58,375 bases of DNA from a virus. The notes beneath the pieces are model-generated. The model was not told where the DNA came from. It saw nothing but the letters and a program-made list of their open reading frames with translations, and made no database searches. Shown piece after piece: positions 3,101 to 58,375 of this stretch. Position numbers and translations under genes: made by a program. Position 1 is the first letter of the stretch; each line of letters starts with the position of its first letter. The stretch is taken from positions 1 to 58,375 of IMG/VR virus record IMGVR_UViG_3300011115_000472. One strand, 5' to 3'.

Positions 3101-5635
3101 CGCTAATTTTTCATCTGCCGCTTTTTTCGCCGCTATTTTTTCTTCTTCTATTTTGCCAAGATAACTTTTATATTCATCAAAATCTTTTACGTTACCACCT
3201 TGTTGTATGAATTTATCAATATCTTTTGTTGCATAACTAAGACCACCCCTCCAAGCCTTATTAGCCAAATCAGTTCTAGCAACAGACAACTCGTATGCAG
3301 TTAGATTTGCTTGATTTGCTTTGGCTTTGGCTTCGTCTGCGGCTTGTTTTTGAGCCGCCGCCGCCAAGGCTTCTGGTGTTGATGCTAAATCTGCGGCTTC
3401 TTTAATTTTTGCTAAACGATCTTCTTCTGCTTTAGCCGCCTTGGCATCAGCAATCGTTTGTTGCTCCGCTAATTTTTCATTATTTACAAAATCTTTGTAT
3501 GCATTAAAACCATAACCGTTACCCTGAGCAATAAACTTGTCAATTTTTGCTATATCTAATATGCCACTCATGGCGGCAGAACTAATTAAATTATTTCTGC
3601 CATCAATAGCTTCTTGTTTTTTATACGCATCTAAATCACCGTTATATTTTTGGTAATTATAAAGATCTGGAAATCCTGCGGTTTTTGCTTTTTCTTCATT
3701 AGTTGCGTTTGTAGCTTTTTCTTGCAAAGCTCTATCAGCATAGTATGCGGCTTGATCACCACCGTACTTGTTATATGTTGCTAAATCAGGAAACCCATAA
3801 TTCAAAGCATTACTTGTGTCTATTGCTAATTGTTTTTTTGCAACGACTTCTGGGGCATCTATAGATTTCCAATTTTCTGCATAATAATTTTGGTAATTCC
3901 ACCCATACTTTATGGCAGTTTCAGAATCAGGAAAACCTCGTTCTTTGGCTATTGGATCGTAATATGCTTTATCAGAGGCTTCTTTTTGAACTCTTGCGTC
4001 TTCTGCATTTTTTTCTGCAATTGCTTTTTGTTCATTGGCGTATAAGTCAGATCGTGCATACTCATCCCAACTACCAAATCCTCTTTGTTTGCGCGCATAA
4101 AAACGCAAGGGATCTTCTCCTTTTGATCCCGCGTCTTGCAAATCATCAAAGTTTTTAAATCCTGCATCAGTAGCTTTTTGGTAATTTGTCCAATCTGTTT
4201 TATTGGTGATGCCGTTTAATTCTGCATCTTGTTTTTCAGATGCATTTTTCCAGCCATCTTGCCAAGCGTAATAGTCAGCGCCATTTTTAATATTTTTATT
4301 AAAAGAACCTTGTTCATCGCCTAGTAGCTTATCTGCGTAAGATTTGTATCCTTCATTAACAGCACTAAGTTCTTTATCAATTCTTATTTGTTCTTTTTCA
4401 ATGATTTCTTCTAATGCTTGATTACTAATTGAGTCGGCCAGTTCCTCAGCATTTTTTTCAAGCGCATCACGATATGACACCAAATCTTTTACGTTATCCT
4501 CAACCAACAAATTGGTATTGTCATTAATATCAGAAATTTGTTTATTTAAATCTGATAATTTAATAGTAAAATCTTTTTCATAATTTTCAGATGCTGTTTT
4601 AAGTTCACCAGCAATATCTTCGTATAAAGATTTTGCAGTGTCTACGTATTTTTTAGAAGATTCTATATATGGTATTAATTCTTCAAGATTTTTGGCACTG
4701 CCTGTAGCCCAAAGATAATCCGATTGATTTGGGTTTGCTTCGTAAGCTGATTTATGAAAATTGTAATTTTTATATTCAGTTTCAAATTTGTTTTGCCAAA
4801 AGTTGTAGGTATTTATTTGTTTACTATAATGATTGTATGCATTAGTTACTTTTTCAAGTACGGGTTTGTAATCATAATAATAAGTGTCAGAAGCGTCTTT
4901 ATACAATTTGCTGGCTTGTTTAGTTAACGATTGCCCCAATTCATTGTTTTTATTTATTTGATCTGCACGACCAGATATGGCCGCTTGCAATGATGTAGTT
5001 ACTACAGAATTGGTAATTGCATACGCTATATCTTTACCAGACATGATTGCGGAAGTGGCGCTACTTACGGCACCCCTAATCAATTGATTGTCTACTGCGG
5101 TGTATCCCTTATCTGTTAACCCAGAGCTAACATAACTAGACACGGCTCCTTGAACACCTGCCGCAATTATTTTGTCGAGGCTACCGCCGCGAAGTGCCGC
5201 AATTGCGGCTGACCCAGACGAACTAATAATTACTTCTTTTATAGTTGCCTGCATTGCCGCTGGCATTTGCGCAAATGAAGCGGAAGTTCCTGCGCCTACT
5301 GCATCACCTATTTTTCCGCCTGCATATGATGCCGCCATTGAAAGAGCAATGTCTTCCATCTTTCCGCCATTGGCGGCTGTTACTGCGGCACTGGCTATCG
5401 TGGCGGCATATTGCTCTGATGCAATTGCCAACCCTTCTGGGCCAAGAAAATACGTTAACGCTACCGTTGCAATGACTGGTAATGGATCGCGAATGATTGC
5501 GTCTAGCGCTTTATTGGCGCTAGTGGCAATACTTTCAATACCCTTGCCTAATGACGTAACGGTATGTGCCCCTGCGTCCCAAGTATCTTGTACGGCTTTC
5601 CCGGCATTGTTTAGTTCTTGTTCTGGGTTAGACAT
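1..5635 (-). CDS. Giant virion protein, N-terminal and central part (2216 aa when joined)
   Basis: The frame opens at ATG 5635 behind AGGGG and has no stop down to base 1. It continues in frame at 58248 and stops at 57233, giving a protein of 2216 residues. I read, in order: an Ala/Gly-rich N-terminal region of about 200 residues with hydrophobic stretches; a Tyr/Asn/Lys-rich helical region; three repeats built on GFPD-x(6)-KYG-x(3)-YY; some 600 residues of Ala/Lys/Glu/Gln coiled coil resembling TolA; a Pro/Thr/Glu-rich part with many GGLPVTTP-like units; and a run of PVVEEEE heptads. The start overlaps the upstream gene by 8 bases. It is followed by two internal-protein genes and a transglycosylase. 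I infer an internal or ejection protein, or a long filamentous virion component. No named family is recognised for the whole. Confidence 0.85.
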   Translation of the reverse strand, partial: MSNPEQELNNAGKAVQDTWDAGAHTVTSLGKGIESIATSANKALDAIIRDPLPVIATVALTYFLGPEGLAIASEQYAATIASAAVTAANGGKMEDIALSMAASYAGGKIGDAVGAGTSASFAQMPAAMQATIKEVIISSSGSAAIAALRGGSLDKIIAAGVQGAVSSYVSSGLTDKGYTAVDNQLIRGAVSSATSAIMSGKDIAYAITNSVVTTSLQAAISGRADQINKNNELGQSLTKQASKLYKDASDTYYYDYKPVLEKVTNAYNHYSKQINTYNFWQNKFETEYKNYNFHKSAYEANPNQSDYLWATGSAKNLEELIPYIESSKKYVDTAKSLYEDIAGELKTASENYEKDFTIKLSDLNKQISDINDNTNLLVEDNVKDLVSYRDALEKNAEELADSISNQALEEIIEKEQIRIDKELSAVNEGYKSYADKLLGDEQGSFNKNIKNGADYYAWQDGWKNASEKQDAELNGITNKTDWTNYQKATDAGFKNFDDLQDAGSKGEDPLRFYARKQRGFGSWDEYARSDLYANEQKAIAEKNAEDARVQKEASDKAYYDPIAKERGFPDSETAIKYGWNYQNYYAENWKSIDAPEVVAKKQLAIDTSNALNYGFPDLATYNKYGGDQAAYYADRALQEKATNATNEEKAKTAGFPDLYNYQKYNGDLDAYKKQEAIDGRNNLISSAAMSGILDIAKIDKFIAQGNGYGFNAYKDFVNNEKLAEQQTIADAKAAKAEEDRLAKIKEAADLASTPEALAAAAQKQAADEAKAKANQANLTAYELSVARTDLANKAWRGGLSYATKDIDKFIQQGGNVKDFDEYKSYLGKIEEEKIAAKKAADEKLAAWTAMDAANTARAQAYRQEQIKIQADAQAAAAIAEAKKQAEIAEAAEKAQQVADQVKAEAAVKAAQEEATRQAEISRKAEEDRIASEAEQKRIVEAEQARQAEIVRKEEEDRLAAEAEQTRLAAEKIATEKKLAEDKAAEDKLAADKAIADQAAADKLVADQAAADKAEADRIAAQKATDEANAAAQKAAEDAKVAQEEADRQAQIKADADAAKAAADAEAKRQTELAEAARRAKEAEDQARAEAAAQAAKEESDRQALIAKKAEEARIVADAEAKRLAEEQIVREKELADAKAFAEQQAQEQARVEEEARTKADAEARAQAETQAKAEADAKAEADAKAQAELDKVAAQKAADEAKLAQEEVDRQAQIKADAEIAQAAAIAEAKKQFEIAEAAKQAQQVADQVKAEKALREAQEEATRQAEIVRKADEDRIAAEAEQTRLADIEQKRLAEVEQTRLAEETRQAEIVRLADKATADQAAADKLVADQAAADKLVADKAAEDKLANNPVVQVLNPNPVVQVLENPATTFNPLAPDDVKDIMDKYKTGVDIAADYKGTDVASNDGTLPNTGLTSGTVSKVFPPDRGAVWNADRGVWVDAANNGYWMMGSDGYSFTSLDKQEDTETSTDTSTGLGGTTGGTSIGTDTNAPTGTQPSDAGALPVTKTEPEVTPTPAEVVPVQPEQPAGGLPVTTPTEEVKQEQPAGGLPTTTPPAEEPPQVVAPPLTKVEEPAAPVTPPEQTTTGGLPVTTPVTTPVEPPVEPPVEVVQPPTGGLPVTEPVQPPATTEPVGGLPVVETPAEKPVEVVPPPVEKPVVPEPVEEVPTTGGLPTVETPSQETVSPLPVNPPEEPVVEKPVEPPLVETEEPPVTDTPKEPALVSSEPLGYGMYKDTYSDGSISYREEPYTEEPIVQEPVVKDPVVIDDGEDGIDRVDPVDPVVKEEEQEETEEPITGGLPVTETPVVEEEAEEEEPVVEEEEPVVEEEEPVVEEEEPVVEEEEPVVEEEEPVCAEGFHWNGSMCVSDEDEDPVTEEDDIPT
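91..216. repeat. 21-bp tandem repeat (six copies) encoding PVVEEEE
   Basis: The plus-strand unit begins CAGGTTC or CAGGCTC at 91, 112, 133, 154, 175 and 196, exactly 21 bases apart, and then degenerates to about 240. Read on the minus strand it encodes a Pro-Val-Val-(Glu)4 heptad in the giant protein. The assembly break falls inside it. Confidence 0.9.
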
Positions 5636-6035: not shown

Positions 6036-6269
6036 TTACGCCTGTAAATTCATTATGCCAACCATTTGCTGAGCCCAATCTTGCCAATTGTCAAACAATC
6101 TTTGATCTGGAATAGCGGATTGTGCAAAGAAGCCAATGCCGTTCATTCCATCTACCCAGTCCCTCCAGCGCTCCTCTGGCACTGTACCAATATCGTTGGC
6201 TGAAAACAATTCAGCCATCAAATTGCAGTACAGGGGCCACTCCATGTCGCGTGGGTCATAAACTATCAT
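6036..6269 (-). CDS. Small conserved phage protein (77 aa)
   Basis: Starts MIVYDPRD and is rich in Trp. Its start overlaps the stop of the P22 gp10-like gene by 4 bases (ATGA), which indicates translational coupling. Lies between the tail hub gene and the 134-residue unknown. Small acidic, Trp-rich proteins of this type accompany tail genes in related podophages, but no function is known to me. No membrane segment or cysteine cluster is present. Confidence 0.75.
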   Translation of the reverse strand: MIVYDPRDMEWPLYCNLMAELFSANDIGTVPEERWRDWVDGMNGIGFFAQSAIPDQRLFDNWQDWAQQMVGIMNLQA

Positions 6270-8305
6270 GGGTTGCCAGTTCCGCGAACGTCGCCAGTAT
6301 CAAGGCTCAATAGCACCTTACCCATAAAGTAATCTCCATTGAACGTATTTGATCCAAAACGCAAGCGCATTTGACGTCTTTGCTCCCTCATGTCCACTTT
6401 CAAAGTGTCTGGGTCAAAATAGTACGGGTCAGATGGATTGTCTATATCGTCCGCATAGCCCTTACCAGTCACGACCAAATACATTTCACCCGACTGCACA
6501 AAGTCAGGCTCTACACGCTCACAGCGCGTCCACAAGTTATCACCTGCTTGCTGAGTCGATCCAACCAAACCTGAATACGAGCCAAGTGCAGGCGTCTCAA
6601 AGTATGAGTCTATTGCGTTAACAAAGTTGAGGTAGATTGAGTTGGTGCCCGTCTCGTGTTGCCACAAGGTATAGGTGCCAACAGTGTTTTCCTCGTTGCC
6701 AGCCCAAATTGGGTGTGGAAAAACTTCAGAGAATACGCCCGCAGAACGGTAAGAGCCGGGAGACTGGCCAGCGTCGTACCACGTCTTTTCCCTTACGTTG
6801 TAGATGATCGCGTCATTGCACTCCGTTGCATCACCGCGTGGGTAGAAAAACCAAATCTCACCCCACCGCGGAACTTTGCTTACCCAAACTTTTTGACGTT
6901 GCACATAGTTCAAGTTGTCAAAGAACCAATTCATGTTCTGCGTGTTTGGCACTTCTTGCACAACACCGTTGTACATCAAGAATCTATCAGTACCAATCCA
7001 GTAGAAAATACCGTCATACTCAATTACGCACGACGATGACATGATCGAGCTTTGGCTTGTAATCAGGTCATACTTCCAAAAATAGTTGATGCCGTTTACA
7101 GTTGATGGCGCGTAAGTGACCCGTACCACGGAATCCGTAGTCCAAAACAGACCTGCCGGCGATGTTGTGCCGCCACGCAATGGCAGTCCCCTGATTACCT
7201 TACCAGTTGATATGTTGGTGGCGTTAGAGTCTGCGCTTGTCCAATTGTTGAAATCCCCAGCAGAACAATTTTGAATCAACCCATAGTTGCCGTACACAAA
7301 CAAGTAGGGGTGAAGCACAACGACGCCACCCGATATCGAGATGTTGTTGTCGAAGGTCAACGTTACTGTTGCAGATGCTGTTGCCGCGTTACTTAAAAAC
7401 GCTGTCCAAAGCTGTGCTGTGGTTGATGCCAACGATGTGATTGATCCTAAAAATCCACTGCCAGTTCCGCCAATAGACGCCGCTGGAATACTGAATGTTT
7501 CTTGAGCAACAAAGTTTGCGCCGCCATTAGTGATGGTGACAGACGACACAACAGTGCCGCTTACAACTACTGTGGCCGCGGAGCCTGAGCTAATTCCATA
7601 TTCATCTACCAAAGCAACGCTTGTGTACGTCCCGTTGGTATAACCTGATCCAACGGTACTTATTGATACCGTACCAACTGGGCCATACGACAAAAGCTGT
7701 GACGCTGTTACGGTGGTGCTCACTGGGATGCCACTACCAGTAACCGTTACGCCTGCGCCTACAGCCGCAATGGTTGTGGCAAACCTAATCAACTTAGAGC
7801 CTGACACAGTGGTTGCAGAGGCTGTAAACACGCCAACTTCAGTGAGCGTAGTGTTTGGCCATGCACCTACCAAGGGCCTTGTGTTAACAGTAGAGGAAAT
7901 GTCATTAAGATTTTGACCGGGGTGCGCAATTAAATTATTTACACCAGCACCCGAAGAGTCATACCCAATGTCAAATTGCCATAAATTGTTGTCATTTGCG
8001 GTAAAGCCAGTCAACGTATAGTCCGTTGGGCCTGAGCCAATACCATCATCGTTATCAGTAACCCATTGCTGAAGTTTGTTGTTTGTGCCTGAAACAACGT
8101 AGTTCAACCCGTCTGTTGAATTCATTGTCATGCCACGAGAGATACCAGAGGCGTTCAAAAAGATGCCCCTATATCCACCCATCTTGCGCGGCAACGCGTT
8201 TTGAAAACGAACCCACTTTCCGTTTACATAGGAAGGGGCATTAAAAACGGTGCCATCCCGCTGGATGCCCGGTTTAATTTGTAGCGCAACAACCTTTGTT
8301 GTCAT
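6266..8305 (-). CDS. P22 gp10-like tail hub / packaged-DNA stabilisation protein (679 aa)
   Basis: The N-terminus, with SYVNGKWVRFQNALPRKMGG around residues 25-45, is the recognisable opening of the P22 gp10 (packaged DNA stabilisation) family. That protein forms the hub between the portal-adaptor stack and the tail needle and fibres. The C-terminal third has many Trp/Tyr-rich beta segments typical of the family. Residues roughly 155-330 look like an insertion of Ser/Thr/Val-rich Ig- or beta-sandwich-like repeats, making the protein longer than P22 gp10. Start and stop overlap both neighbours by 4 bases. With the two adaptor proteins it indicates a short-tail machine. Confidence 0.8.
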   Translation of the reverse strand: MTTKVVALQIKPGIQRDGTVFNAPSYVNGKWVRFQNALPRKMGGYRGIFLNASGISRGMTMNSTDGLNYVVSGTNNKLQQWVTDNDDGIGSGPTDYTLTGFTANDNNLWQFDIGYDSSGAGVNNLIAHPGQNLNDISSTVNTRPLVGAWPNTTLTEVGVFTASATTVSGSKLIRFATTIAAVGAGVTVTGSGIPVSTTVTASQLLSYGPVGTVSISTVGSGYTNGTYTSVALVDEYGISSGSAATVVVSGTVVSSVTITNGGANFVAQETFSIPAASIGGTGSGFLGSITSLASTTAQLWTAFLSNAATASATVTLTFDNNISISGGVVVLHPYLFVYGNYGLIQNCSAGDFNNWTSADSNATNISTGKVIRGLPLRGGTTSPAGLFWTTDSVVRVTYAPSTVNGINYFWKYDLITSQSSIMSSSCVIEYDGIFYWIGTDRFLMYNGVVQEVPNTQNMNWFFDNLNYVQRQKVWVSKVPRWGEIWFFYPRGDATECNDAIIYNVREKTWYDAGQSPGSYRSAGVFSEVFPHPIWAGNEENTVGTYTLWQHETGTNSIYLNFVNAIDSYFETPALGSYSGLVGSTQQAGDNLWTRCERVEPDFVQSGEMYLVVTGKGYADDIDNPSDPYYFDPDTLKVDMREQRRQMRLRFGSNTFNGDYFMGKVLLSLDTGDVRGTGNP

Positions 8306-9527: not shown

Positions 9528-10166
9528 TTAGGAGTCCACTGCTATTGCCTGACGATCACCAACACGAGCGACGTCTTCCGTCTTCAGTGCAGTGATCGAT
9601 TCGGTGTATTTTTGCTGAAAAATTGCACGCGCATCGTTTTTAAGAAACGGCATCGCTTGCAATAGGGTTCCGTACAGCATCGCATTGGGCGCGTACTGGG
9701 TAAGCCAATTGGTTTGATTAGTCGAGCTAAGGGGCGCTATACGCTCGTAGTACAGCACTTCAAAGCTGTATGCTTGATCTGGAGTAGGCGCAAAATACCA
9801 GTGCTGATAATCGGTGTCTGCGTAATACAAGGGCACATCCGTCAATGACGAGTTTGGCCAATAGTTCATCAAATACTCAAACTTGCGCAACAGCACTGGC
9901 TGTGTCGTTGTCCCAGTGTTAACCGTCATAGAGACTGTTTTTCGCCAGCGCGCAGGTTTGGCAAGAACTGGGTTACTTGCAGTCATGGTGGATGTGGCCA
10001 CCTGAAGTTGCCCTAAAGTTTTGATTTCCTGAGCAATTTCAAACTCAGCAAGGGTAATAAATGTGGGAATGGCGGCAATTGTTGCGGCGTCATTGCGTTC
10101 CAGATATTGCAGAACAATAGACGTCAAGCTGTCGTATGTCATCACCCATGATGGTGTCGTTGCCAT
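9528..10166 (-). CDS. Head-tail adaptor protein, gp11/T7 tail-tube-A-like (212 aa)
   Basis: The pattern (DSLTSIVLQYLERND then IPTFITLAEFEIAQEIKTL, and a Trp/Tyr-rich YYADTDYQHWYFAPTPDQAY centre) matches the phage adaptor family that attaches below the portal ring in podophages. A clear AAAGGA site precedes ATG 10166. It sits next to the lysis genes and directly before fibre and hub genes. The name depends on family resemblance that I recognise but cannot search. Confidence 0.7.
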   Translation of the reverse strand: MATTPSWVMTYDSLTSIVLQYLERNDAATIAAIPTFITLAEFEIAQEIKTLGQLQVATSTMTASNPVLAKPARWRKTVSMTVNTGTTTQPVLLRKFEYLMNYWPNSSLTDVPLYYADTDYQHWYFAPTPDQAYSFEVLYYERIAPLSSTNQTNWLTQYAPNAMLYGTLLQAMPFLKNDARAIFQQKYTESITALKTEDVARVGDRQAIAVDS

Positions 10167-30851: not shown

Positions 30852-33353
30852 TCATACTCCTTGGGGTCGAGGCATTGGCTCGGGTGGTGGTGGTGGCGCT
30901 GACATCGCAGGCGGTGCCTTTGGTGCGGGTGGTAGCGCAGGGGGTTGTTGTGGAGTTGCCGCCACATCATTCGCATGTTGAATCGTTTCGTGAGTCAACT
31001 TTGAATTTTCGATATCAATCTTGGTTTGATTGTCCATTGCATGCTTCTGGATGTCAGCTTGCAATTTGGCTTGATCGTATTGGATATCCGATTGGTCTTT
31101 TTGCGTCTTGCGTTGAGTTTCAGCCATACTCGTATCGTGGACGACTTGTGCATCAGGCGGCAATGTTTGCTTGGCTTGTTGTTGACGTTTCTGAGCTTGC
31201 TGAATCAATTGCTGGAATGCAGGCGCAAACTGTTGGAACGTATCTTGTACATCTAAGTTTACATGGGCACCAACCGTTGCATACAACTGGTCAATCGTTG
31301 CCGTCAGCCTTGGATCATCATAGTTATCCACAGGTTTTCCACCGCGGGTTTGAGCCACATAACCATTAGAACGGTTCAAGTACCACAACGTCATGTGTTG
31401 CTTGATGTGCTCGATTAAATGGTTGAGGTAACTTGGATCTGCAAATGGCGACTGGCCCAAGAATGGGTTTAAGCCAAATTGCAAGTGATCCTGAATGTGC
31501 GCAATGTGATCTTGTTGCATGTACGCATACGCAGGCTGGCCAATCAGCATGGCCGCGTTTTCATCAGCAGAGGTGCGTTGTTCAGGCGCAGGCACGTCCT
31601 TCATCAATTCATTGATGTTGGGCACCTTCATTTGCTTGAGTGAGCGAGACAACACAGCGCCCATGTTGAACTGGTCAGGGTGCTTTTCCGCCAACTGCAT
31701 CACAGCCTGCATCTGAGCCATGCGTTGTGTCTCAGAGAAGATGTGCGGGTCAGACACTGGCACAACATCCGTGTTCTTGGCAAAGTCTTGGCGATTGATA
31801 TCCAAGTCAGCCACCACATCAGACTTGCGCATCTCGTCAAAGTGCCAACGGTTCAATCGGCAAAGAATTCGCAAAACGCGTGCTTGGCTTTCGTGCAGTC
31901 GCGCATGAATAGCGCTAAACACCGCGGCCCCTTGTTCAATCAGAGCCTGCGTGGTGCCCACAGGAGCCTGTGCAGACACGTCAGCGATCTTTTCTTCGCT
32001 CGTGGTCACTACCCCCTTAGCCGCGGTATCAAGCCAGCCTAGGAGCTTAAATAAGACCTCGCTGGGTGGGTTGAACGGCATGGGCATGGCGATCTGTCGG
32101 ATATCGGAAACGCCGGGTGCGCCTTCGATCTCCACAATCTGCGTCACTTCCACTTGCTGGCTCTGGCCGCTGATCTTTGCTCCCTTGAGCTTTAGCATCG
32201 TGGCCGCGTTGTTAATGTGAGCCGAATCCATCAAGGCGCGCAAAGCACCCGTCAAAGCCGCACTGAGTCCACCAATCAAGTGGGGGAGGCCAATTGCATA
32301 TGCACCACGCCACGGGATAAATTTAAACTCCACAATCCAATCTAACTTGGTCATCGTGTCGTCTGTCTCTTCCCAATTGCGATACAGGCCAATAACCTCG
32401 TTGTCCAACTCGTCAATCATCAGGATGTACGGAGCCATCTCGCCTTTGCTGTACTCGTCCTCTTCCAATTCCAAGAACGTGTAGATGTGATACACCTTGC
32501 GCAGGCCATCGCTGTTGTCTTCGTACTTCTTGCCTTCAATCTTGTCGTTGGCTTTTTGCGCCTTGGTTGGCTCGACTTCCGTCGTTGCCTTTACTAGCGT
32601 AACGTCACGGTACATGCCAGTGGAAATACGACGATTGAACTCCCAGTGCGTGATCTCGTGCATTTCAGCGGCACGCTCTGCGGTGTAGAAGTTACTGGCC
32701 GCAAATGGCAGGATCACACGGTCGATTGGCAAGAACTCCACGCATGGGCGCTTCTTCTGCTCGTCAAACCATAATTTAAAGTATTGCGATCCACCTAAAG
32801 GCAATTGCGTCAGCATCTGCTCTTGCTCGTCACGGAACTCTTGTATCTGCTCCGTAATCTGCCAGTTCAAATAGTCACGCTTGCGCTCAGCACGATCAGC
32901 TTTAACGTCGTCCATCTTGCCCAAGATTTTTGTACGTACAGGGCCATCAGGTGGAAACATCTCTTTGATTGCACGAGCGGCAAAGTCAACACAGCCCTCA
33001 GCCATGGCCGGGTGCACAACTTTGCTGGCACCCATAAACGTTGCACCACCGGGGGCGTCGTTGCCCATACCAGTGCGCTTGATGCCCTCTTCGTATTGTT
33101 TGTCACGCTGTTCGCGTGCATCCTTATCGCTCTTTAGCAAATCGATATAACGACCCGACATCGACGTCAATTCCATAGGGTCATACGACTCTGCCATGTT
33201 GGCGTAGAAATCTGGATTGACTTCGGGGCCATCATCCTCAACAGTAACAATGGCACTGCCGTCAGGCTGTTCTTCCGTCTGCATCTCAGGCAGATCTACA
33301 ACCGCGCTACCGTCTTCGTTTTCAGTAATCTGTGGGTCTAATTCATCCATCAT
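30852..33353 (-). CDS. Portal protein (833 aa)
   Basis: A large protein with the podophage portal pattern: a helical clip/wing region, MEITHWEFNRRISTGMYRDV, an IEGAPGVSDIRQIAMPMPFN segment, TQALIEQGAAVFSAIHARLH near the crown-stem, and a long Gln-rich coiled-coil tail (residues about 690-800) ending in a Pro-rich stretch. Two acidic repeats (DGSAVVDLPE at 14-23, DGSAIVTVED at 31-40) open the protein. It follows the 1217-codon gene with ATGA overlap and is the DNA gateway of the head and assembly nucleator. Confidence 0.85.
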   Translation of the reverse strand: MMDELDPQITENEDGSAVVDLPEMQTEEQPDGSAIVTVEDDGPEVNPDFYANMAESYDPMELTSMSGRYIDLLKSDKDAREQRDKQYEEGIKRTGMGNDAPGGATFMGASKVVHPAMAEGCVDFAARAIKEMFPPDGPVRTKILGKMDDVKADRAERKRDYLNWQITEQIQEFRDEQEQMLTQLPLGGSQYFKLWFDEQKKRPCVEFLPIDRVILPFAASNFYTAERAAEMHEITHWEFNRRISTGMYRDVTLVKATTEVEPTKAQKANDKIEGKKYEDNSDGLRKVYHIYTFLELEEDEYSKGEMAPYILMIDELDNEVIGLYRNWEETDDTMTKLDWIVEFKFIPWRGAYAIGLPHLIGGLSAALTGALRALMDSAHINNAATMLKLKGAKISGQSQQVEVTQIVEIEGAPGVSDIRQIAMPMPFNPPSEVLFKLLGWLDTAAKGVVTTSEEKIADVSAQAPVGTTQALIEQGAAVFSAIHARLHESQARVLRILCRLNRWHFDEMRKSDVVADLDINRQDFAKNTDVVPVSDPHIFSETQRMAQMQAVMQLAEKHPDQFNMGAVLSRSLKQMKVPNINELMKDVPAPEQRTSADENAAMLIGQPAYAYMQQDHIAHIQDHLQFGLNPFLGQSPFADPSYLNHLIEHIKQHMTLWYLNRSNGYVAQTRGGKPVDNYDDPRLTATIDQLYATVGAHVNLDVQDTFQQFAPAFQQLIQQAQKRQQQAKQTLPPDAQVVHDTSMAETQRKTQKDQSDIQYDQAKLQADIQKHAMDNQTKIDIENSKLTHETIQHANDVAATPQQPPALPPAPKAPPAMSAPPPPPEPMPRPQGV

Positions 33354-36300
33354 TTAGCCTTCTTTGATTTGCGGCTTAATTCTAAGTTCATGATATCCAT
33401 ATTTGTGGATAGGTTCACTTTGCCGCCTTTTTTGTAGCCCAAGCGCTTCTTCATTGCAAGCTCGTATTCGCCCATCTGATTGATGTATTGCTCATCGATT
33501 GGCTCACGAATAATGTTCATCTTCGCTTGGTTGAACGGAACAACTTTCTTGCCCATCCGCGCAATCTCTTGTCTAGCATTGTGCATTGAACGTGGTGCCA
33601 AAATATCAGCAGGCGTAGTGTAACGAGTACGTCCCACTAATTTTGATGGTATGTCGTGACCATACGTCGGGTGAGGGGAAATGCTTTCCTTCAAGCTACG
33701 GTTTGGATCAAATTTAATGATTGACGATCCGCCTGCACCAGTCTCAATGTCGCGCAACTCAGGATGGCTAATTGCATAGATGATGTCATCTAGCTTTTGC
33801 TTACCGCCAGCCATGTACTTCTCTTTGCCCAGCATGCTAATAATCTTCTTGCGCATGCCTGAATTAAATGGCGCTTGCAATCTAATGTCCGACGGATTTT
33901 CAAAACCGGGAAAGTCAGGATAGGGCTTGTCATTCTTGTTGGTAGTCAACTTTACATTGCGCATTAAATGGTTGAGTTGCTCAATCTGCTCTTTAGGCAA
34001 CTTGTGCGGCTGATGGTGCGCTAACACTGAGTCCAGCATATGCACTGCGTGATACAACGCCTCTGGTGACATCTTGTGGTAGTGGCCATAGACATCCATC
34101 TCAGGATTATCTTTGGCCAAACGCTTCACAACGTTAAACATACCGCGGCTGGCACCCAAGTCACTTGCCCAGCCAGCAGGATGGCCATAGGCACCATAGT
34201 CTTTGCCACCGTACAAACCAACGGGTTGCTCCAAAGTTTCAAAGCCAATTGATTTAAGGTACTCGCCTGCTTCAGGTGAGTCCATGTTTGAATTGTTGGT
34301 GGGCATTACACCACCGCGGCTTGTGTCACCGGGTACGCCTACTGAGTACGAACCCTTCAGGTTTCCGTAATCAATAATTGGCGTCTCATTCTTCTTTGAG
34401 CTTTCAATTCCAACTTGCAAATCTTTCTCACGCGCCATCTGTTGCAGTGTCTTGCCCGTTGGGTTTTCTTGCCCCGACACTTGACGCGCCATACGCTCAG
34501 CATGCGCCTCAATGTCCGCCTTGCTTAATGTTGGCGATGGGCCGTAGTACAGGGGCTTCTTTGGCTTAGCAGACCCACCCTTGGCATACACCTCACGCTT
34601 GCCGTACTTGGGCTTCTTGGCCAGCACCAACGGGCCAATCTGCACCACATGTTCAGCATGGGTGATGGGCTCCATCGTCTCGCGGTCATAGAAGTCACCA
34701 TGACGGCGTGGGTCGTAGCCCACCTGACGATAATCAGGGTGATTAAAATACTTCTGAAAATGCTTGACAGCCTGATCTTCAGTCATGTGCTCGAGATCAC
34801 CCATGATCTTGGCAAATGGCGCTTTGTTCTGCTCACCAGTAGCCACGCGAACCGCTTTGTGTGGCGAGCCTTGAAACTCAGCATTGCGCACTGAGGAGAC
34901 GGGGCCGTAGGACGTTGCAAGTTTTTTCTCGCCGCCTGACTCATCATGTATTGAATTTACCCACACGCCATGATCTTCATATGCCGGGATGTCCAACCGC
35001 AGTCCTACGCGGTGGCCAGCAGGCCATGACTCATGACCACGCCATTTTGCTTTCTTCGGCTCATGTAGTGCGCGCATTGCGTCTTTATCAGTGGCAGGCT
35101 TGGGAATGAACTCATAAGGCTTGACGGGCTTTTCTTTGGCCACAACCTTGGCATACGCCTTTTGCTTCATGTCGCCTTCCATCAAAGCACGAGCCGCGGC
35201 TTCAATCTTTGGGTTACGACGTGATGCCTTGTCATCAAACACGGTAGGGCGCACCTCAACTTTAGGCGGTTGTCCACCATCTTTTAACAAGTTGATGTCA
35301 TTGATGTCAAATGGCGCATTGTTGTCAGGCATCCAAGATGAAGACACCGAACCACCATCAGCCATTTGAGGCGGCGCTTTGGGTGGCGTCATGGCGTTCA
35401 TAGCCTGCCCTTGTGGCGTCATCTGTAAGATGTTGCTTGGCGCTTGCTGAGGAGGCGCTCCACCACCCAATGGGGAAGGCATGCCCTGTTGCTCTGCGCC
35501 CTGCGGTGGCTGGCCTTCAGGCGGTTGCTTGGGCACCAAGCTCTGAGGTAGCAACTGATCGCCAGTCTGTTGTGGGCTCATGTCAACACCGCCAACTGGC
35601 ATTGGAGTGCCATCATTCTTGGGCGGCAGATATTCCTTGACATTCATGTTGGGAGCTTCCATAGCCCCGATCTTTGTCATATCTGAAAGTGATGTGGGCC
35701 TTTTGGTGGCCAACTCAGCGCGCATTTCATTGACTGATGGCACAGCACCGCCAACCGCCTTCTTGATCACATTGGGCGTCAATGGGTGCATCTTTTTGCC
35801 AGTCTTCTCTTGCACGTAGTAAGCGTTGTGGCCAGCCTTGCGCATGCCCTGCTGGACGCGGGGGTCTTCCAAATACTTGTGGTTACCCGCTGACAGCATC
35901 TCGCCCATGTGCTTGTGCACGTCAGGGATCTTGTTAAAGTCTTTGTGCTTGGAAATGTGGCCAGCAACATTGGTGACGTGCTCAGGGTTCTCATAGTCGA
36001 ATGGGTTCACATCGCCTCCTTCAGCGTATCCGCGCATGGCTTTAATAATGTCATTGTGCGTTGTTTGATTATTACCCGAAGCATCCCATACTGCATGGTG
36101 TGCCAAGTGTTGGTAGTGCGGTTGCATGGCCGGGTCTATCTTTAGATTCATGGCCGACTGCCTTGACGCTAATCGATCCACGGCTTCACGAGCCCCTTGA
36201 CCTTTGCCTCGATTCATGATAGAGCCAATGCCAACATTTGCAGGCAATGAATGCAGATTTAATTGGCGCGCATCGAGCGTCGGCAAATCACCGCGGCCAA

Positions 36301-37003
36301 GCATCGATCCAATGAAGCCAGACTTCGCCCCGGCCACACCCTTCATCTTCTCCGCAAAATCGCGGTAGTCATCCTTCGACCCGGTAATCGCTTGGTTTAG
36401 GTTCTGCGACATGGCAGGCATGTTCTGCGCCGCATAGATCATCTGGTCTGTCAATTGATTGTGCTTGCCAAACGGCGAGAATTTCTGTCGCACGTCATTG
36501 AGTGCAGGCTGATGCACCATACCGCGCTCTGCCGCGTTCAAATAGCTCTGCCCCATGGGTGACCCCAGCCACTCAGCAAAGGCCCCTTCTGGCCTCACCT
36601 CGTCGCCCGTGTTGGGGAGCTTCATGCCAGTCTTGGTGGCCGTAGCATGAGACAACCCACCGCGGCCAATGCTCGATTGAGTGATGGTGAATGCCTTCAG
36701 CAAGTCTCGTGTGGTCAGCCCTGCCGCCTGTGCTCGGGCCAATTGCTGGTTCATGAACTCGCCATAGTTCTTTTGAACGTAGTCGGGCACCTCGATGATA
36801 GGCATGTCCTTGCGGACGTCCTGCATCTTGCGCCACTTCCAATCTTCGATCTTTGTCGTCTTAGGATCGCGGTACTTAGAGACGTCGCCACCACCCTTCA
36901 TCAGCTCAAGGCGCATCCTGTCCATGTCTATTGGTGTTTCCACGGCTACTCTTTCATTGTGGTATGCATGGATTATGCCTTCGGTAATGCGGTAAGTCCA
37001 CAA
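33350..37003 (-). CDS. Very large multidomain virion-region protein between terminase and portal (up to 1217 aa)
   Basis: No single family recognised. An N-terminal helical region is followed by segments with the recurrent GG motif (YAEGGDVNPFDYENP, MADGGSVSSSW, LLKDGGQPP, YAKGGSAKPKK, YKKGGKVNL). Residues about 680-800 contain YDPRRHGDFYDRETMEPITH and VVQIGPLVLAKKPKYGKREV, a pattern I associate with modules of phage large polyvalent proteins. Residues 890-1160 hold a second compact domain (GHPAGWASDLGASRGMFNVV, PYPDFPGFENPSDI, HPTYGHDIPSKLVGRTRY). The 5' limit is uncertain: the longest frame uses TTG, while GTG 36943 or ATG 36925 are alternatives. Perhaps injected with DNA. Confidence 0.65.
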   Translation of the reverse strand: MWTYRITEGIIHAYHNERVAVETPIDMDRMRLELMKGGGDVSKYRDPKTTKIEDWKWRKMQDVRKDMPIIEVPDYVQKNYGEFMNQQLARAQAAGLTTRDLLKAFTITQSSIGRGGLSHATATKTGMKLPNTGDEVRPEGAFAEWLGSPMGQSYLNAAERGMVHQPALNDVRQKFSPFGKHNQLTDQMIYAAQNMPAMSQNLNQAITGSKDDYRDFAEKMKGVAGAKSGFIGSMLGRGDLPTLDARQLNLHSLPANVGIGSIMNRGKGQGAREAVDRLASRQSAMNLKIDPAMQPHYQHLAHHAVWDASGNNQTTHNDIIKAMRGYAEGGDVNPFDYENPEHVTNVAGHISKHKDFNKIPDVHKHMGEMLSAGNHKYLEDPRVQQGMRKAGHNAYYVQEKTGKKMHPLTPNVIKKAVGGAVPSVNEMRAELATKRPTSLSDMTKIGAMEAPNMNVKEYLPPKNDGTPMPVGGVDMSPQQTGDQLLPQSLVPKQPPEGQPPQGAEQQGMPSPLGGGAPPQQAPSNILQMTPQGQAMNAMTPPKAPPQMADGGSVSSSWMPDNNAPFDINDINLLKDGGQPPKVEVRPTVFDDKASRRNPKIEAAARALMEGDMKQKAYAKVVAKEKPVKPYEFIPKPATDKDAMRALHEPKKAKWRGHESWPAGHRVGLRLDIPAYEDHGVWVNSIHDESGGEKKLATSYGPVSSVRNAEFQGSPHKAVRVATGEQNKAPFAKIMGDLEHMTEDQAVKHFQKYFNHPDYRQVGYDPRRHGDFYDRETMEPITHAEHVVQIGPLVLAKKPKYGKREVYAKGGSAKPKKPLYYGPSPTLSKADIEAHAERMARQVSGQENPTGKTLQQMAREKDLQVGIESSKKNETPIIDYGNLKGSYSVGVPGDTSRGGVMPTNNSNMDSPEAGEYLKSIGFETLEQPVGLYGGKDYGAYGHPAGWASDLGASRGMFNVVKRLAKDNPEMDVYGHYHKMSPEALYHAVHMLDSVLAHHQPHKLPKEQIEQLNHLMRNVKLTTNKNDKPYPDFPGFENPSDIRLQAPFNSGMRKKIISMLGKEKYMAGGKQKLDDIIYAISHPELRDIETGAGGSSIIKFDPNRSLKESISPHPTYGHDIPSKLVGRTRYTTPADILAPRSMHNARQEIARMGKKVVPFNQAKMNIIREPIDEQYINQMGEYELAMKKRLGYKKGGKVNLSTNMDIMNLELSRKSKKAK

Positions 37004-52629: not shown

Positions 52630-54369
52630 TCATCTATATCCTAATTGTCTACGTTCTTCTGCGTTAGCGTCTGACAGTTTTTGCCTCATAGACCTATTGT
52701 CGGCAGGCTGATCTGGTTGTGATTTGCCAGATTTCCTAGAAATATAATCTTTAATCTCATTGACGAATGGGGCGCCTACAGCGGTGGCAATACCCACTGG
52801 GATACCTACTTGAGGGCCAAAGACAAACGGAGCCGCATAAGGCGCTACAGCGCCTAATAGTGATGTTCCTGCGCCGACATAATCTTTTTCTTGTAGTCTT
52901 CGATCGGCATCAATGAGTGCTGACGCTGTTCCAGCAACAGGCGCGGCTTTAGGGATCAGTGATGCACCACTTGCTACGGCACCAAGAGTTGACTTGGCGG
53001 CACCCACGTAATCTTTGGCTTCGGCTTTGTTATACGCATCTTGTGCGTTGTACCCAGCGCCATAAGCCGCTAACCCGCCCATTACCGGGGGCGATCCAGC
53101 AACAGCGCCCACAACGCGAGACGCTACATTGGGTTTCTTGGTTTGCAGTGGTGCGGCTACTGGTGTAGTTGGAGGGGGCGTGGCGTCTACGGGTTGAGTT
53201 TTTGGCAATGGCGTCATGCCGCCTTGGTTAACCACTTTGCCGTTTTCAATTTCAATTGGTTTATAAGAGAACGACTCTCGTGGGCCACCACCAGCGCTAC
53301 CGCTTGACGTCATAAGGCCACCAAAATTTGGGTTTTCAATATAACCGGGTGCTATTTGATTTACTTTTTGCAGATTTGCTGTTCGCTGGTTTGCAAGGTC
53401 GTGCGCGCCGCCTTTGTTCTTAGTCATATCAAGAGCCTGACCAGCCTCAATATCAGTCAGCCCAACCGACTTTGCATAGTTGTATGGCATGTTGCCAGTC
53501 TGGCCGGGGGCCATTCGACCAGCGTCGCTAGTACCAACTGGTATTGGCTGTTTGGCGGCTGTGGTGGGTGCATTAGTAGCGGCAGTATTTTGTTTAGTCA
53601 CTATTTCAGCAATTTTTGACATGTCCTCCGAAGTAAGATTTTTTTTATTTCTAAAAAAATCAACAACTGGTTTGGCCATTGCAAACGCAGGGTATTTGAT
53701 CGCTCCAACACCCAATCCAATTGCGCCTGTTATTGCGCCAGCTTCGGCTGGAGATCCTCTTACTGGCTTTTCTTCGCCAGAAGAATTAGACGCAGAAGTC
53801 TTATACGGGTTAGGAGCAACATCAGAAGATTCTGAAGCGTCAGCACTCGATACGGTTTCTGGAACATCGGCTTGAACAAATGTTGCACTTGGCAAGTCGC
53901 CGCCATAATGCCCGACAATCTTGTTCATGTGAACAATTGTTTCATCTTTTAAATCAGAAAGATTTCCAGACGCGTAAAATTTATTACGCGTTTCAGTGCT
54001 TGCGTTGTAACCAGCTAAAACCTTGTATGGATCGTCGCCAATCTTTGGATTATCAATTAACTCTCTCAGCAAAGATATGCCGCCACGAATGTTTTGCTCC
54101 ATGTCGGTACGGTCAACTTTCAGTCCTTTGGCGGTGTCCTCCATTAATTGCATAACGCCAAAAGCGCCCTTGCGGGAAACGGCAGTAGGATCAAATTTGC
54201 TTTCCTGATAGACCATTGGCCAAACAAAATCTGGGTTGACCTTTTGACGTCGTGCCTCTTTATCAACAGCAAAAGCAATGGCCAACTGATCGTCATTCAG
54301 TTTATATTTATTAAGAAACTTGAGTTGGTTATCGCTTAAACGAGCGTAATCTTGTGGGTCTACAGCCAT
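52630..54369 (-). CDS. Virion lytic transglycosylase (579 aa)
   Basis: N-terminal lysozyme-like SLT domain: VYQESKFDP with catalytic Glu56, GAFGVMQLM at 69-76, ENIxGG-like EQNIRGGISL, and LAGYNAS at 118-124. Then a disordered Pro/Ser/Thr region. The last 200 residues have hydrophobic segments and two repeats (YNKAEAKDYVGAAKSTLGAV, DRRLQEKDYVGAGTSLLGAV), as in ejection proteins that build a channel. Likely delivered through the envelope at infection to open peptidoglycan. Last gene of the leftward series. Confidence 0.85.
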   Translation of the reverse strand: MAVDPQDYARLSDNQLKFLNKYKLNDDQLAIAFAVDKEARRQKVNPDFVWPMVYQESKFDPTAVSRKGAFGVMQLMEDTAKGLKVDRTDMEQNIRGGISLLRELIDNPKIGDDPYKVLAGYNASTETRNKFYASGNLSDLKDETIVHMNKIVGHYGGDLPSATFVQADVPETVSSADASESSDVAPNPYKTSASNSSGEEKPVRGSPAEAGAITGAIGLGVGAIKYPAFAMAKPVVDFFRNKKNLTSEDMSKIAEIVTKQNTAATNAPTTAAKQPIPVGTSDAGRMAPGQTGNMPYNYAKSVGLTDIEAGQALDMTKNKGGAHDLANQRTANLQKVNQIAPGYIENPNFGGLMTSSGSAGGGPRESFSYKPIEIENGKVVNQGGMTPLPKTQPVDATPPPTTPVAAPLQTKKPNVASRVVGAVAGSPPVMGGLAAYGAGYNAQDAYNKAEAKDYVGAAKSTLGAVASGASLIPKAAPVAGTASALIDADRRLQEKDYVGAGTSLLGAVAPYAAPFVFGPQVGIPVGIATAVGAPFVNEIKDYISRKSGKSQPDQPADNRSMRQKLSDANAEERRQLGYR

Positions 54370-54379
54370 TACCTACCCC

Positions 54380-55972
54380 TTAATTTGTTGGAAGACCGCG
54401 TTTTGCCATTTCTGCCTTAAGCGCTTCATTATTTGTTATTCTGGAAGTGTTTGCAGGCGGATTATTAGAAGATGTTGCTGGAGCTTTTGGTTTGCTGGTA
54501 GTAGTTTCATTCCTGTGCCTGTAGGTGTTTTCCAATCCGTTTCTTATAAAGTCTGGCACTCCGCCGCCAAGAGCAGAATTTTCCAAAACACCCCTTGATC
54601 GCTTTTCCAGATGCGTGCGAAGTCTTCTGTATTCTTGCGAATCTTCCCAGTCATGAATATCTGCATCAGGACGTCGCAAAAATTGTTGCAACACATTTTT
54701 GGCTTCATAGCGTCCAAGTGCAGTAGATCCAATACCAGCTATACCGCGCAAGAAAGCATCTTGCGTGTTTTTCATATCTGGAACTGATGCCGCTTCAAAC
54801 ATAGTGCGCGCATCTGTTGGGTTAATGATGCCCTGTTGCATTTTGGTTTGCAAGTCACCCAATTGAGTTTTCATTATCTGAAGATTTGTTAAGGCGGCTT
54901 GCGTGTCTTTTTCACTCATTCTTGCTTTTAGAATTTGATCACGCATACCAGCCAAAACACCAGAAACAGTTTGGTTTTCCAATGCTTTACCAATTATGCC
55001 CATTGCATCTCCGCCCTCAAAAATAGCAAAGGCTGGAGCCATGTATTTTGGTTGTGCCAAGCGAAACAAGTTTGCAGTAGTTTCAAATATTGGAATAGAT
55101 GTCTCTGCTTGCGTGCGGTATCTGTCTTGCAAAACTTTGGTAGCCGCAACTCGATCATCAATTTGTCCTGTGGTTGCGGCTAAGGTTTGGCCATGCGTTG
55201 CATTTGCCATTAAATTTTCTGGCACACCTAATGGCCTTACTGAAGAACCTGCGTTTGGATTGGTCGGTGCAGGTAACACATCGCTTGCGGATGGCGCTGG
55301 CTGACCAGCAACAGGTGTACCGCTTGGTGCAGGTGGCGGTTTTGCTCCACCAACGGTTGATTGACCGGGAACCAATTTTAGCAAAGTTGGCCACATTTGA
55401 TTTACAAATGATGCACCAAAATCTTTTACCAATTTTGTGTAATCAGATCCCGCTTGGTAAGCCGCCAACATTGAATCAAAAGTAGAGCGTTGATTTTCAA
55501 ACTTTTGTTGCGCTATTGCTCCTATTTCTTTGTCGTACTGGGCAATATCAGCCACGTCTTCAGAGGTCATTCCACCGGGTTTTTTAATACGCTCGTTTAA
55601 CATCTCGTTGCCTTTTTTGCGCTGTTGCAATCCAACCCCCATAACAGCGGCTTGTGCTCGTATTTGCGCAACTGTAGGAGCCACTGCGCGTTGCTGTTCA
55701 GTGTTCTCTCCCATAGCCTCCGCGGCAGATCCAAGAGACGCACCAAAACCACCCAATTGGGGCTTTAAAAAACCAGCAGATACTTTGAACCAATTTGGAT
55801 CTTTGTATCTCATTTCTAAAGATTTTGCTAAATCTTCTTGCCCTTTCTGTGCTTTTTCAAATTCAGACCCAATTGCATCGTCTGTGTTAACTCCAGCAAG
55901 ATTCACTTTGGAAAGGTCAATTGGTTTGACGCCGGGAATCATTGCAAGAGACAGTGGTGATCGTGTTTCCAT
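54380..55972 (-). CDS. Internal virion protein (530 aa)
   Basis: Helical over most of its length, with a Pro/Ala-rich linker in the middle (KPPPAPSGTPVAGQPAPS). N-terminal DPNWFKVSAGFLKPQLGGFG, then AVAPTVAQIRAQAAVMGVGL; second half QAALTNLQIMKTQLGDLQTK and a C-terminal Ser/Thr/Asn-rich tail ending KRGLPTN. It precedes the transglycosylase by 10 bases and follows another internal-type protein. I infer a member of the ejection complex. No enzymatic motif seen. Confidence 0.72.
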   Translation of the reverse strand: METRSPLSLAMIPGVKPIDLSKVNLAGVNTDDAIGSEFEKAQKGQEDLAKSLEMRYKDPNWFKVSAGFLKPQLGGFGASLGSAAEAMGENTEQQRAVAPTVAQIRAQAAVMGVGLQQRKKGNEMLNERIKKPGGMTSEDVADIAQYDKEIGAIAQQKFENQRSTFDSMLAAYQAGSDYTKLVKDFGASFVNQMWPTLLKLVPGQSTVGGAKPPPAPSGTPVAGQPAPSASDVLPAPTNPNAGSSVRPLGVPENLMANATHGQTLAATTGQIDDRVAATKVLQDRYRTQAETSIPIFETTANLFRLAQPKYMAPAFAIFEGGDAMGIIGKALENQTVSGVLAGMRDQILKARMSEKDTQAALTNLQIMKTQLGDLQTKMQQGIINPTDARTMFEAASVPDMKNTQDAFLRGIAGIGSTALGRYEAKNVLQQFLRRPDADIHDWEDSQEYRRLRTHLEKRSRGVLENSALGGGVPDFIRNGLENTYRHRNETTTSKPKAPATSSNNPPANTSRITNNEALKAEMAKRGLPTN

Positions 55973-55985
55973 GATTTTTTCCTTT

Positions 55986-57230
55986 TTAACCTACTGAATC
56001 AATATCTGGATCAAATGCAATATTGTCTAAATTACCGCCGCCGCCGTCGGTGACCACGGTATCGTTGCCACCGCCACCAACCACAGTATCTTCATTTCCA
56101 CCGTTGTCAACCACAGTATTTCCACCGCCATACGGTTTCCCGTCAACATATACTGGATTTCCATCTGAATCAGAATATCCAGTTGGGCTGGCTGGATCAT
56201 TTAAAACTGACAATCCTTCTGGTGTCAATGCACCAGTTACTGGAGTAGTTTGCTGGTCTGTTCCCCTAAACGTCTTGTATGCCTTTGATAACCCACTAGT
56301 TAAACTGTCATAAGGCGTAGAGCCAGAAATAACTTTGCCAGCAGAGTCGTACTGAGGAGTAAAGAACCCAGCGGTACCAGTTGCAATACCAGCAATTGCA
56401 GACAATGGCGACATCTGTGCCGTAGTCTTTGTAGTCGTTGGCACGTTGTAGCCACGAAGCAATTCAGACTGCGTCTTGAGGTTCTGTAGCGGAAACAGTT
56501 CTTTGTTCTGCTCAATGGTCTGCTTTTGCGCGCCTAACGTAGACAACGCATTGATGTCAGCCAAACTCATGTTTTGCTGTTGGCCAGCCAATGTGCCTTG
56601 TGCCTGCCCCGCAGTAGTTAAATTCTGCTGTCCTTGTGACGCCGCGTTTGCCGCCGTGCTACCCATTTGGGCCTGCAATGCATTTTGCTGTCCTGCGGCT
56701 GTCAGCGCTTGACCGTACCCGGTACTAAGGGCTTGGCCTTGAGCGTTGAGAATGTCACGGTCAGCGTTAGAGATTGTTTGCCCAAGCACCTGAGCACCAC
56801 GCAAAGAACCAAATTGTCCAGCCCCTACAGCCCCAGCAGTGGCTTGAGGCGCAAGGTTGTTCATGATGTTGCGTTGTCCCGCCTCACCAAGCGAGTTCAC
56901 CACGTTTGTGATGTACGGATTCATGTACTGCGACGCCAGCTTAGAGGGGTCTGTGCCTGCCGCTGTCAAATAAGGCGTTGCAGAACTTAATGGTGATGCG
57001 GCATTTGTCGCGGAAGTTAGAGTGTTCCCGGCATCAGTAAGAGTCGGCTGATAGCTTGCTGGTACCTTGGTAACGTCAGTGAATGCCTGTGTTTGCAGGG
57101 GATCAGCACCAACATACTTAGCCCCAGTGGCCGCATTTGCTCCGCTCGTAGCCAGACCACTCAAATACGTGTTGTAGTAGTCTGGCGCTGTCGTCGCCTG
57201 CGATTGTGAACTTTCTAATAGATTAGCCAT
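55986..57230 (-). CDS. Ala/Gln-rich internal virion protein (414 aa)
   Basis: N-terminal two thirds are Ala/Gln/Thr helices (QYMNPYITNVVNSLGEAGQR, ATAGAVGAGQFGSLRGAQVL, QGQALSTGYGQALTAAGQQN). A 'YMNPY...VVNS.L' pattern is common in injected phage proteins. The last 100 residues are Gly/Asp/Asn/Val-rich (GGNTVVDNGGNEDTVVGGGG) and resemble calcium-binding Gly-Asp repeats, though not a strict RTX nonamer. Start 57230 immediately follows the giant gene's stop at 57233. Confidence 0.72.
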   Translation of the reverse strand: MANLLESSQSQATTAPDYYNTYLSGLATSGANAATGAKYVGADPLQTQAFTDVTKVPASYQPTLTDAGNTLTSATNAASPLSSATPYLTAAGTDPSKLASQYMNPYITNVVNSLGEAGQRNIMNNLAPQATAGAVGAGQFGSLRGAQVLGQTISNADRDILNAQGQALSTGYGQALTAAGQQNALQAQMGSTAANAASQGQQNLTTAGQAQGTLAGQQQNMSLADINALSTLGAQKQTIEQNKELFPLQNLKTQSELLRGYNVPTTTKTTAQMSPLSAIAGIATGTAGFFTPQYDSAGKVISGSTPYDSLTSGLSKAYKTFRGTDQQTTPVTGALTPEGLSVLNDPASPTGYSDSDGNPVYVDGKPYGGGNTVVDNGGNEDTVVGGGGNDTVVTDGGGGNLDNIAFDPDIDSVG

Positions 57231-57232
57231 TT

Positions 57233-58375
57233 TTAACCTTTCACCATCTTGAGATAGTCAAGCGGGGATTTCGCCTTTGGGGGTATTTTAGATGTAGGAG
57301 CCGATCTTTTGTGGGCTCTTATCTCTTCGCGCATTGCATCGAGCAATTTAGATCCTGCTTTGTTGTCACCCCGCCCTAAAGCAGTCACAAAACTGGCAGG
57401 GAATACGTACTCGCCATCCGCGATCTTGGCAGGCACAACCGTACCGCCTTGAGCCGCATGCTGGTGAGGGATCTGACGACGGAACTTCTCTAACGCTTCC
57501 GCCCCAGCCTTGCTAGAACCGTCTCCAAGCGCCGCAACTAGGTCGGCGTCAGCTACATAGTCACCGTCGTGGAGCATGGCTGGAATGTCGTCTGATTGGC
57601 CTGTGCCCTTACCTTGGGCGTAGTAACCAGTCAATCCTGTTATGAATTCTGGATTGTGGCCATCAGGGGCCGCTTCTGCGTACTTAGATGGCAGTCCGCC
57701 TTTGGCCATCGAATTCAATGGAGACGATGACCCGCCAAGCCCAGTTTTGAGGAACTTGAGTTTGCCCAAACGACTTTCTGTATTCTGACTAGCGGGTGCG
57801 GCGGCTAACATTTGATGCGGCGAGTTTTTGACCGTGGCGCTGAGCTTGCCAATTTCTTCGGTGCCAGTTGTGCTTACAGAACTGCCTGATGCAAAAAATT
57901 GTGATTTGTACATGTCTTTATCTTCATCCTCATTTTTGGGTGGCTCTGGTTCTTCTTGGCGCTTAGGACGCGTAATTCCACGCGAAGCCAGTACAGAAGT
58001 CATTTCAGGTGTCAACGTGTCGTATAACTGATGCAGTTTTTGCAACTCTGACTTATTGTTATACACAGTAGCGCCAGCAAGCATCTGTGGGCTTGAGTCT
58101 AACGGCAATACACCAAACGGGTTGGTATTGCTTGCAGACGCAGTTGCCGGGCTCGTAGGCGATTTTGTTACTGGTCTTGTTACCGGGGTTTTTGGCTTAG
58201 GCGGTTTAGGCAATATAGGAATTTTGGGGATCTTGATTCCACCATCATCAGTAGGAATGTCGTCTTCTTCGGTGACGGGATCTTCGTCTTCGTCAGAAAC
58301 GCACATGCTCCCATTCCAATGGAATCCTTCTGCGCAAACAGGTTCTTCCTCTTCAACAACAGGTTCTTCCTCTTC
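57233..58375 (-). CDS. Giant virion protein, C-terminal part (continues at base 1)
   Basis: This is the 3' end of the 2216-residue frame, open through the right edge. An apparent start at 58306 is only an internal Met. After the PVVEEEE heptads comes a short CAEGFHWNGSMCV element with two cysteines. Acidic and Pro-rich linkers follow, then MAKGGLPSKYAEA. The last 170 residues hold two diverged copies of a module with the core (H/A)DG(D/E)YV, a Val-(V/T)-Ala-Leu-Gly segment and an (S/N)KAG helix. A similar 'DGEYV-ALG-G' module is familiar from phage tail and virion proteins, which supports a virion role. The end is basic (SPLDYLKMVKG). Confidence 0.85.
   Translation of the reverse strand, partial: EEEEPVVEEEEPVCAEGFHWNGSMCVSDEDEDPVTEEDDIPTDDGGIKIPKIPILPKPPKPKTPVTRPVTKSPTSPATASASNTNPFGVLPLDSSPQMLAGATVYNNKSELQKLHQLYDTLTPEMTSVLASRGITRPKRQEEPEPPKNEDEDKDMYKSQFFASGSSVSTTGTEEIGKLSATVKNSPHQMLAAAPASQNTESRLGKLKFLKTGLGGSSSPLNSMAKGGLPSKYAEAAPDGHNPEFITGLTGYYAQGKGTGQSDDIPAMLHDGDYVADADLVAALGDGSSKAGAEALEKFRRQIPHQHAAQGGTVVPAKIADGEYVFPASFVTALGRGDNKAGSKLLDAMREEIRAHKRSAPTSKIPPKAKSPLDYLKMVKG
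58249..58375. repeat. 127-bp terminal direct repeat (assembly overlap), right copy
   Basis: Exact second copy of bases 1-127. Removing one copy leaves a 58,248-base circle. The copy ends inside the 21-bp tandem repeat of the giant gene, so the repeat copy number at the join could be misassembled even though circularity itself is supported by the unique part of the overlap. Confidence 0.95.

Follow-up and report, generated by a model that had tools for sequence, protein, structure and literature searches.

We found that the 58,375-nucleotide stretch of viral DNA analyzed here (the window) comes from a phage of podovirus type whose assembly closed as a circle and was linearised with one 127-base k-mer duplicated, and that the two ends of the window carry the parts of one minus-strand gene for a protein of 2,216 residues. 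That the join is genuine and the overlap of assembly origin is, in our view, almost certain. The features on which this rests are:

1 to 5635, minus strand: 5' part of the 2216-aa gene, with the ATG at 5635; residues 1 to about 1878
57233 to 58248, minus strand: 3' part of the 2216-aa gene, residues about 1879-2216, with the conserved C-terminal domain ending KSPLDYLKMVKG and two DG[DE]YV hairpin-helix units
1 to 127, no strand: left copy of the terminal overlap, identical to 58249-58375; assembler k-mer (k=127), of which one copy is to be removed
58249 to 58375, no strand: right copy of the terminal overlap, identical to the left copy
89 to 211, minus strand: 21-base tandem array encoding VVEEEEP, 5.9 copies, with units 107-127 and 128-148 identical; probable source of the contig break

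Comparison of the window ends showed that the first 127 bases equal the last 127 exactly, which is the longest overlap possible, and a search of the whole window placed this 127-mer at positions 1 and 58249 only. Removal of one copy (58375-127) leaves a circular map of 58,248 bases. On this circle, the minus-strand frame that runs from 5635 to 1 and on from 58248 to 57233 is open for 2,216 codons. The 1016 nt from 57233 to 58248 and the stretch 1-5635 add up to 6651 nt, or 2217 codons including the final stop, starting with the ATG at 5635. The original prediction had named a stop codon in the joined frame as evidence that would speak against a single gene; we checked the frame and found only the final stop. 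It had also held that neither end would be annotated correctly alone. Indeed, the halves called separately give an ORF of 1878 aa that runs off the window edge and one of 357 aa with its ATG at 58306. The next longest ORF in the window encodes 1217 aa compared with 2,216 for the joined frame, an excess beyond chance. This 1217-aa minus-strand ORF (33350-37003) has TTG as its first start and is located between the genes for the portal and the large terminase, and its only match is short, weak and to an L5 gp82-like family.

Homology was found on both sides of the join, which falls at residue 1879 of the protein. The segment directly before the join in the window is PVVEEEEPVCAEGFHWNGSMCVSDEDED, and the motif CxxG[FY]HWNGSMCVxDEDE, present there in the form CAEGFHWNGSMCVSDEDE, precedes the join. 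In the related locus L077 the gene encodes 921 aa and is internal to a contig of 55 kb; there PPEEGPEDCAPGYHWNGSMCVADEDE continues without interruption into the conserved C-terminal domain, and the motif stands 365 residues from the C-terminus compared with 366 in the window across the join. Related Cys motifs occur 338-369 residues from the end in L050, L053, L054, L062, and L067. Because the pre-join motif and the post-join C-terminus are contiguous in L077 with near-equal spacing, we concluded that both sides of the join belong to one gene. The 127-base overlap, the open frame, and the homology on both sides confirm that a 2216-residue gene is split by the window ends, and all numbers given in the original prediction proved correct.

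We considered whether the joined frame might be a false fusion, in which a shared repeat had linked two different genes or the sequences of two virus strains. Fusion or fission of the gene did occur in the family, because its N- and C-terminal modules are encoded separately in some relatives: in L147, L148, L155, and L157 (and possibly L008, with 472 aa and 777 aa) they are adjacent genes, the N-terminal module lying just upstream. Against a false fusion in the window, however, the overlap has 88 unique bases before the array, the parts on either side of the join are contiguous in L077 as described above, and both modules lie in a single ORF in L132, L134, L138, L140, L153 and others; we regard it as highly improbable.

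The overlap had been read as an assembly feature and not a terminal repeat, and the closed relatives bear this out. Six of them have exact end overlaps of 127 (G011), 123 (G003 and G016), 77 (G012), 67 (G007), and 36 bases (G014). SPAdes commonly gives overlaps of 127 or 77, and MEGAHIT one of 123. The opening points of the seven circles, that is, the window (1,016) and the six closed relatives, lie 1,016; 6,490; 28,483; 6,027; 11,758; 20,491; and 10,312 bases upstream of the stop of the big gene. Because neither the overlap length nor its map place is conserved among the closed relatives, we concluded that the overlap is an assembly feature. The window thus has what defines a closed circular assembly, an end overlap of assembler-k length and a start position that is not conserved among relatives. 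It shares the exact k overlap, the non-biological start, and the split gene with circularly closed viral contigs in IMG/VR, but differs from them in that the break coincides with the branch point predicted from a change in repeat length. That the 127 bases are a genuine short direct repeat at the ends of a linear virion genome would be conceivable inasmuch as such repeats are frequent in podoviruses and present in the Caulobacter phages RW and GB2A. However, the 127 bases sit within an open, conserved coding frame, and the overlaps of the closed relatives range from 36 to 127 bases at unrelated map positions. A terminal repeat would be expected at a fixed genome position common to relatives; in RW and GB2A it measures 2,940 bases and is placed at the small terminase gene, whereas the overlap in the window lies inside the big gene. 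We therefore rejected a true terminal repeat, which the varying overlaps of the relatives make scarcely credible.

The further claim that the genome is circular can be upheld only for the map, which closes as a circle: the nearest isolates, RW and GB2A, were deposited as linear records, and in both we verified that the two ends carry the same 2,940 bases as a direct repeat, placed at the small terminase gene. In these records (OR260089.1 for GB2A and MK929790.1 for RW) the small terminase gene appears twice, carried by the repeats. A linear genome with long terminal repeats also gives a de Bruijn circle; a genome like those of RW and GB2A assembles as a circle because the terminal repeat collapses. 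'Circular' is hence supported for the map only and not for the genome as a molecule.

The position of the break is probably explained by a repeat-length polymorphism of the 21-base array in the population. The final 39 bases of the overlap fall inside the array, and the unit after 128-148 begins with G instead of A. If the repeat at the overlap end occurred in two lengths in the population, the 127-mer at 1-127 would become a branch vertex and the circle would be cut there. In a k=127 graph simulation, an allele lacking one unit gave rise to a single out-branch vertex, namely the 127-mer at bases 1-127, with branching at base 128; this vertex is both the first and the last of the contig. Only four such vertices (1, 43, 711, and 17057) among the 58,248 positions of the circle can result when one of a pair of identical neighboring units is lost, and 208 positions (0.35%) fit any one-unit loss in any register. 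The contigs of six relatives (L135, L143, L144, L146, L159, and L164) end within repeats of the big gene. L134 and L136 are one 18-base unit apart with no substitution in 3,060 bases, and are possibly assemblies of related samples. An exact-DNA search for near-identical contigs, which might have displayed the two putative repeat alleles, returned none. Because a one-unit loss branches the k=127 graph at this place and contigs of relatives break in the repeats of the gene, the position of the break is probably not arbitrary.

An arbitrary break, in which a simple cycle was opened anywhere and its opening within the repeat is coincidental, or a single-base variant at 128 as the cause, is the less probable account, with an appreciable chance of being right. 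Five of the six closed relatives open where no tandem repeats lie, and an A/G variant at base 128 would produce the identical vertex. Against an arbitrary break stand the few positions of the circle that fit the loss of a unit and the breaks of related contigs within the same gene. With repeat-length polymorphism as the preferred explanation, the frame predicted for the 2216-residue protein is firm, but the exact count is less certain and may vary by sevens, because the true number of 21-base repeats may vary. Since 21-base changes preserve the frame, the agreement of the frame at the array is not independent evidence for the join.

A scan of IMG/VR with the C-terminal 240 residues gave 132 encoding places, of which 80 were kept. 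The fetched loci held 84 complete unbroken genes of 478-2,039 aa (median 825), which further supports the join in the window. All 84 end in the C-terminal domain, at 44-92% identity to that of the window, and all are shorter than the window protein, which at 2,216 aa is the longest family member found. Length varies 4.6-fold in the family between phages of similar genome size. Tandem-array periods were divisible by three in 148 of 149 arrays (73 members), which speaks for coding sequence and lets the protein change in length without loss of the frame. A genome scan gave matches only in Burkholderiales/betaproteobacterial MAG contigs. Contigs L114-L117 are binned with genomes of this kind, a weak host hint, as bins may hold stray phage contigs.

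The N-terminal 300 residues are predicted to be helical with low confidence (N-terminal model, mean pLDDT 56, too poor for a fold search). The N-terminal module has a hydrophobic stretch around residues 43-73 and the motif NPLPxIxT, which recurs in about 50 other loci. The NPLPxIxT module is also found alone, as a gene of 260-416 aa, in L160, L162, L163, L165, L167, L168, L169-L173, L176, and L177; these stand-alone genes lie on other phage contigs, lack the nozzle and 414-aa genes as neighbors, and have different C-terminal ends (DPEGTTALK..., WNVESLRYMG...). Across 524 residues (828-1351) neither Pro nor Gly occurs, and Ala, Glu, Lys, and Gln are abundant, a composition that would suit a long helix. 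Pro/Glu/Val-rich repeats follow at about 1480-1860. The last 290 residues are conserved, with the two hairpin-helix units around DG[DE]YV, and were modeled with a mean pLDDT of 69. The C-terminal model had no significant fold match in the PDB (Foldseek) and matched only uncultured-phage proteins in BFVD. The N-terminal 540 aa had no match in a PDB sequence search, the left part of the gene none in Pfam or PHROGs, and the N-terminal module none among isolated phages (tblastn). Single-linkage clustering of the N-terminal parts was swamped by low-complexity sequence.

The genes around the big gene are:

9528 to 10166, minus strand: 212-aa head-to-tail adaptor (9nwi, E 2.8e-4; 7z47, E 0.027)
6266 to 8305, minus strand: 679-aa tail nozzle protein (podovirus), upstream neighbor of the big gene
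55986 to 57230, minus strand: 414-aa gene, starting 2 bases past the stop of the big gene; weak DNA-ejection-protein match
54380 to 55972, minus strand: 530-aa gene, second downstream ejection-type gene, so placed by position only
52630 to 54369, minus strand: 579-aa protein with an SLT lytic transglycosylase domain (E 2.3e-17), T7 gp16-like in position and domain

The order nozzle, big gene, 414-aa, 530-aa, and SLT transglycosylase gene is kept wherever it was found; the fuller conserved order is a 407-aa tail-fibre-like gene, the 679-aa gene, small genes, the big gene, and the 414-aa, 530-aa, and SLT transglycosylase genes. In every one of the 84 loci that contain it, the 414-aa gene adjoins the big gene downstream, at a median distance of 3 bases, and four of 24 members of its family match a DNA ejection protein family (best 8e-6). 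Against solved structures, the 679-aa family gave matches to podovirus nozzles (PDB 8zkk, E 1.8e-9; 9nwi, E 3.7e-16). With both a nozzle homologue and a head-to-tail adaptor match, the genes that mark a podovirus, we concluded that the phage is short-tailed.

The nearest isolated relatives are the Caulobacter phages RW, RLK, KcrB, and GB2A, of the proposed genus Riverwalkvirus (PMC11053796). Their gene order around the homologous gene is as in the window, and their TerL is 41% identical. They differ in having only distant similarity and a big gene about a quarter as long (the GB2A homologue has 580 aa, with 36% C-terminal identity to the window protein), and RW and GB2A in being linear records with the long direct terminal repeats described above. 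Closer to the window is Caudoviricetes sp. MW202545.1 (Manatee Spring), with 77% identity in TerL, 76% in the C-terminal domain, the same gene order, and a circular map of 57,457; it differs in its big gene of 639 aa and in being annotated as a siphovirus. This record (L017, L185, and L186) is titled Siphoviridae, and its 414-aa homologue is named 'coronavirus S2 glycoprotein'. This annotation seems mistaken, as the 679-aa homologue in the record is a member of the podovirus nozzle family.

We propose that the big gene encodes a virion protein of the DNA-ejection operon; both this function and its presence in the virion are probable from the gene context. Podovirus ejection proteins are encoded by three clustered genes of widely varying lengths, and in T7 the third of these has a domain that cuts peptidoglycan (PMC8954989). 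SU10 shows that five ejection proteins are possible in such phages (PMC9509320). The big gene clusters with the gene of a transglycosylase-bearing protein beside tail genes, as expected of an ejection gene. Like the operons of T7 (gp14-gp15-gp16) and P22 (gp7-gp20-gp16), the window has three consecutive genes beside the tail genes, with length variation, the last of them encoding a lytic transglycosylase like T7 gp16. In contrast to them, it has a fourth, very long, repeat-rich protein ahead, and no sequence match to solved ejection proteins; neither the N-terminal 540 aa nor the C-terminal domain matched a known ejection protein by sequence or fold in the PDB.

It is possible, if rather doubtful, that the product is instead a tape-measure-type or a fibre/surface protein. 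The C-terminal motif is common to tape measure proteins and not to known ejection proteins: the tape measure family phrog_6090 matches 64 of 64 C-termini, the solved tape measure 8zdo (gp16) matches with E 4e-5 over 48 residues, and the GB2A homologue is annotated as a tape measure (PMC11053796). However, the similarity covers about 50 residues, the DG[DE]YV-type segment, with nothing further in common, whereas a tape measure would call for homology along the protein and a long tail. The nozzle homologue and the adaptor imply that the tail is short and has no need of a tape measure, and the 4.6-fold variation in length between phages of similar genome size also speaks against it. Taken together, a genuine join, a repeat-caused break, and a role in the ejection operon form the best overall explanation, which we hold to be likely.

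As an ejection protein, the product would be the first, length-variable protein of the operon. Its N-terminal module, helical and in part hydrophobic, would be followed by a long, extended linker and then by the conserved C-terminal domain. The linker (the 524-residue Pro/Gly-free stretch and then the Pro/Glu repeats) would grow and shrink by in-frame repeat changes and act as a spacer, and the C-terminal domain might be the part by which the protein docks onto an invariant component of the head or tail. The protein would be packaged with the three downstream proteins, released before the DNA, and help to cross the cell envelope. More speculatively, and with no great likelihood, the linker length of this virion protein heading the ejection operon (total 478-2,216 residues) may be tuned by rapid in-frame expansion and contraction of repeats, perhaps to match host envelope or surface layers, with a length that varies within one natural population and thereby opened the circle here.

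The finding is thus correct and mostly ordinary: a gene split at contig ends is routine, yet the protein concealed by the split is the phage's longest. The added value of the finding lies in the explanation of the break point and in the recognition of a protein family of variable length whose gene precedes the ejection genes. Several related contigs show assembly breaks that accompany the repeat-driven length variation of the family, and this variation points to a protein that evolves fast, is probably carried in the virion, and is encoded next to the ejection genes.
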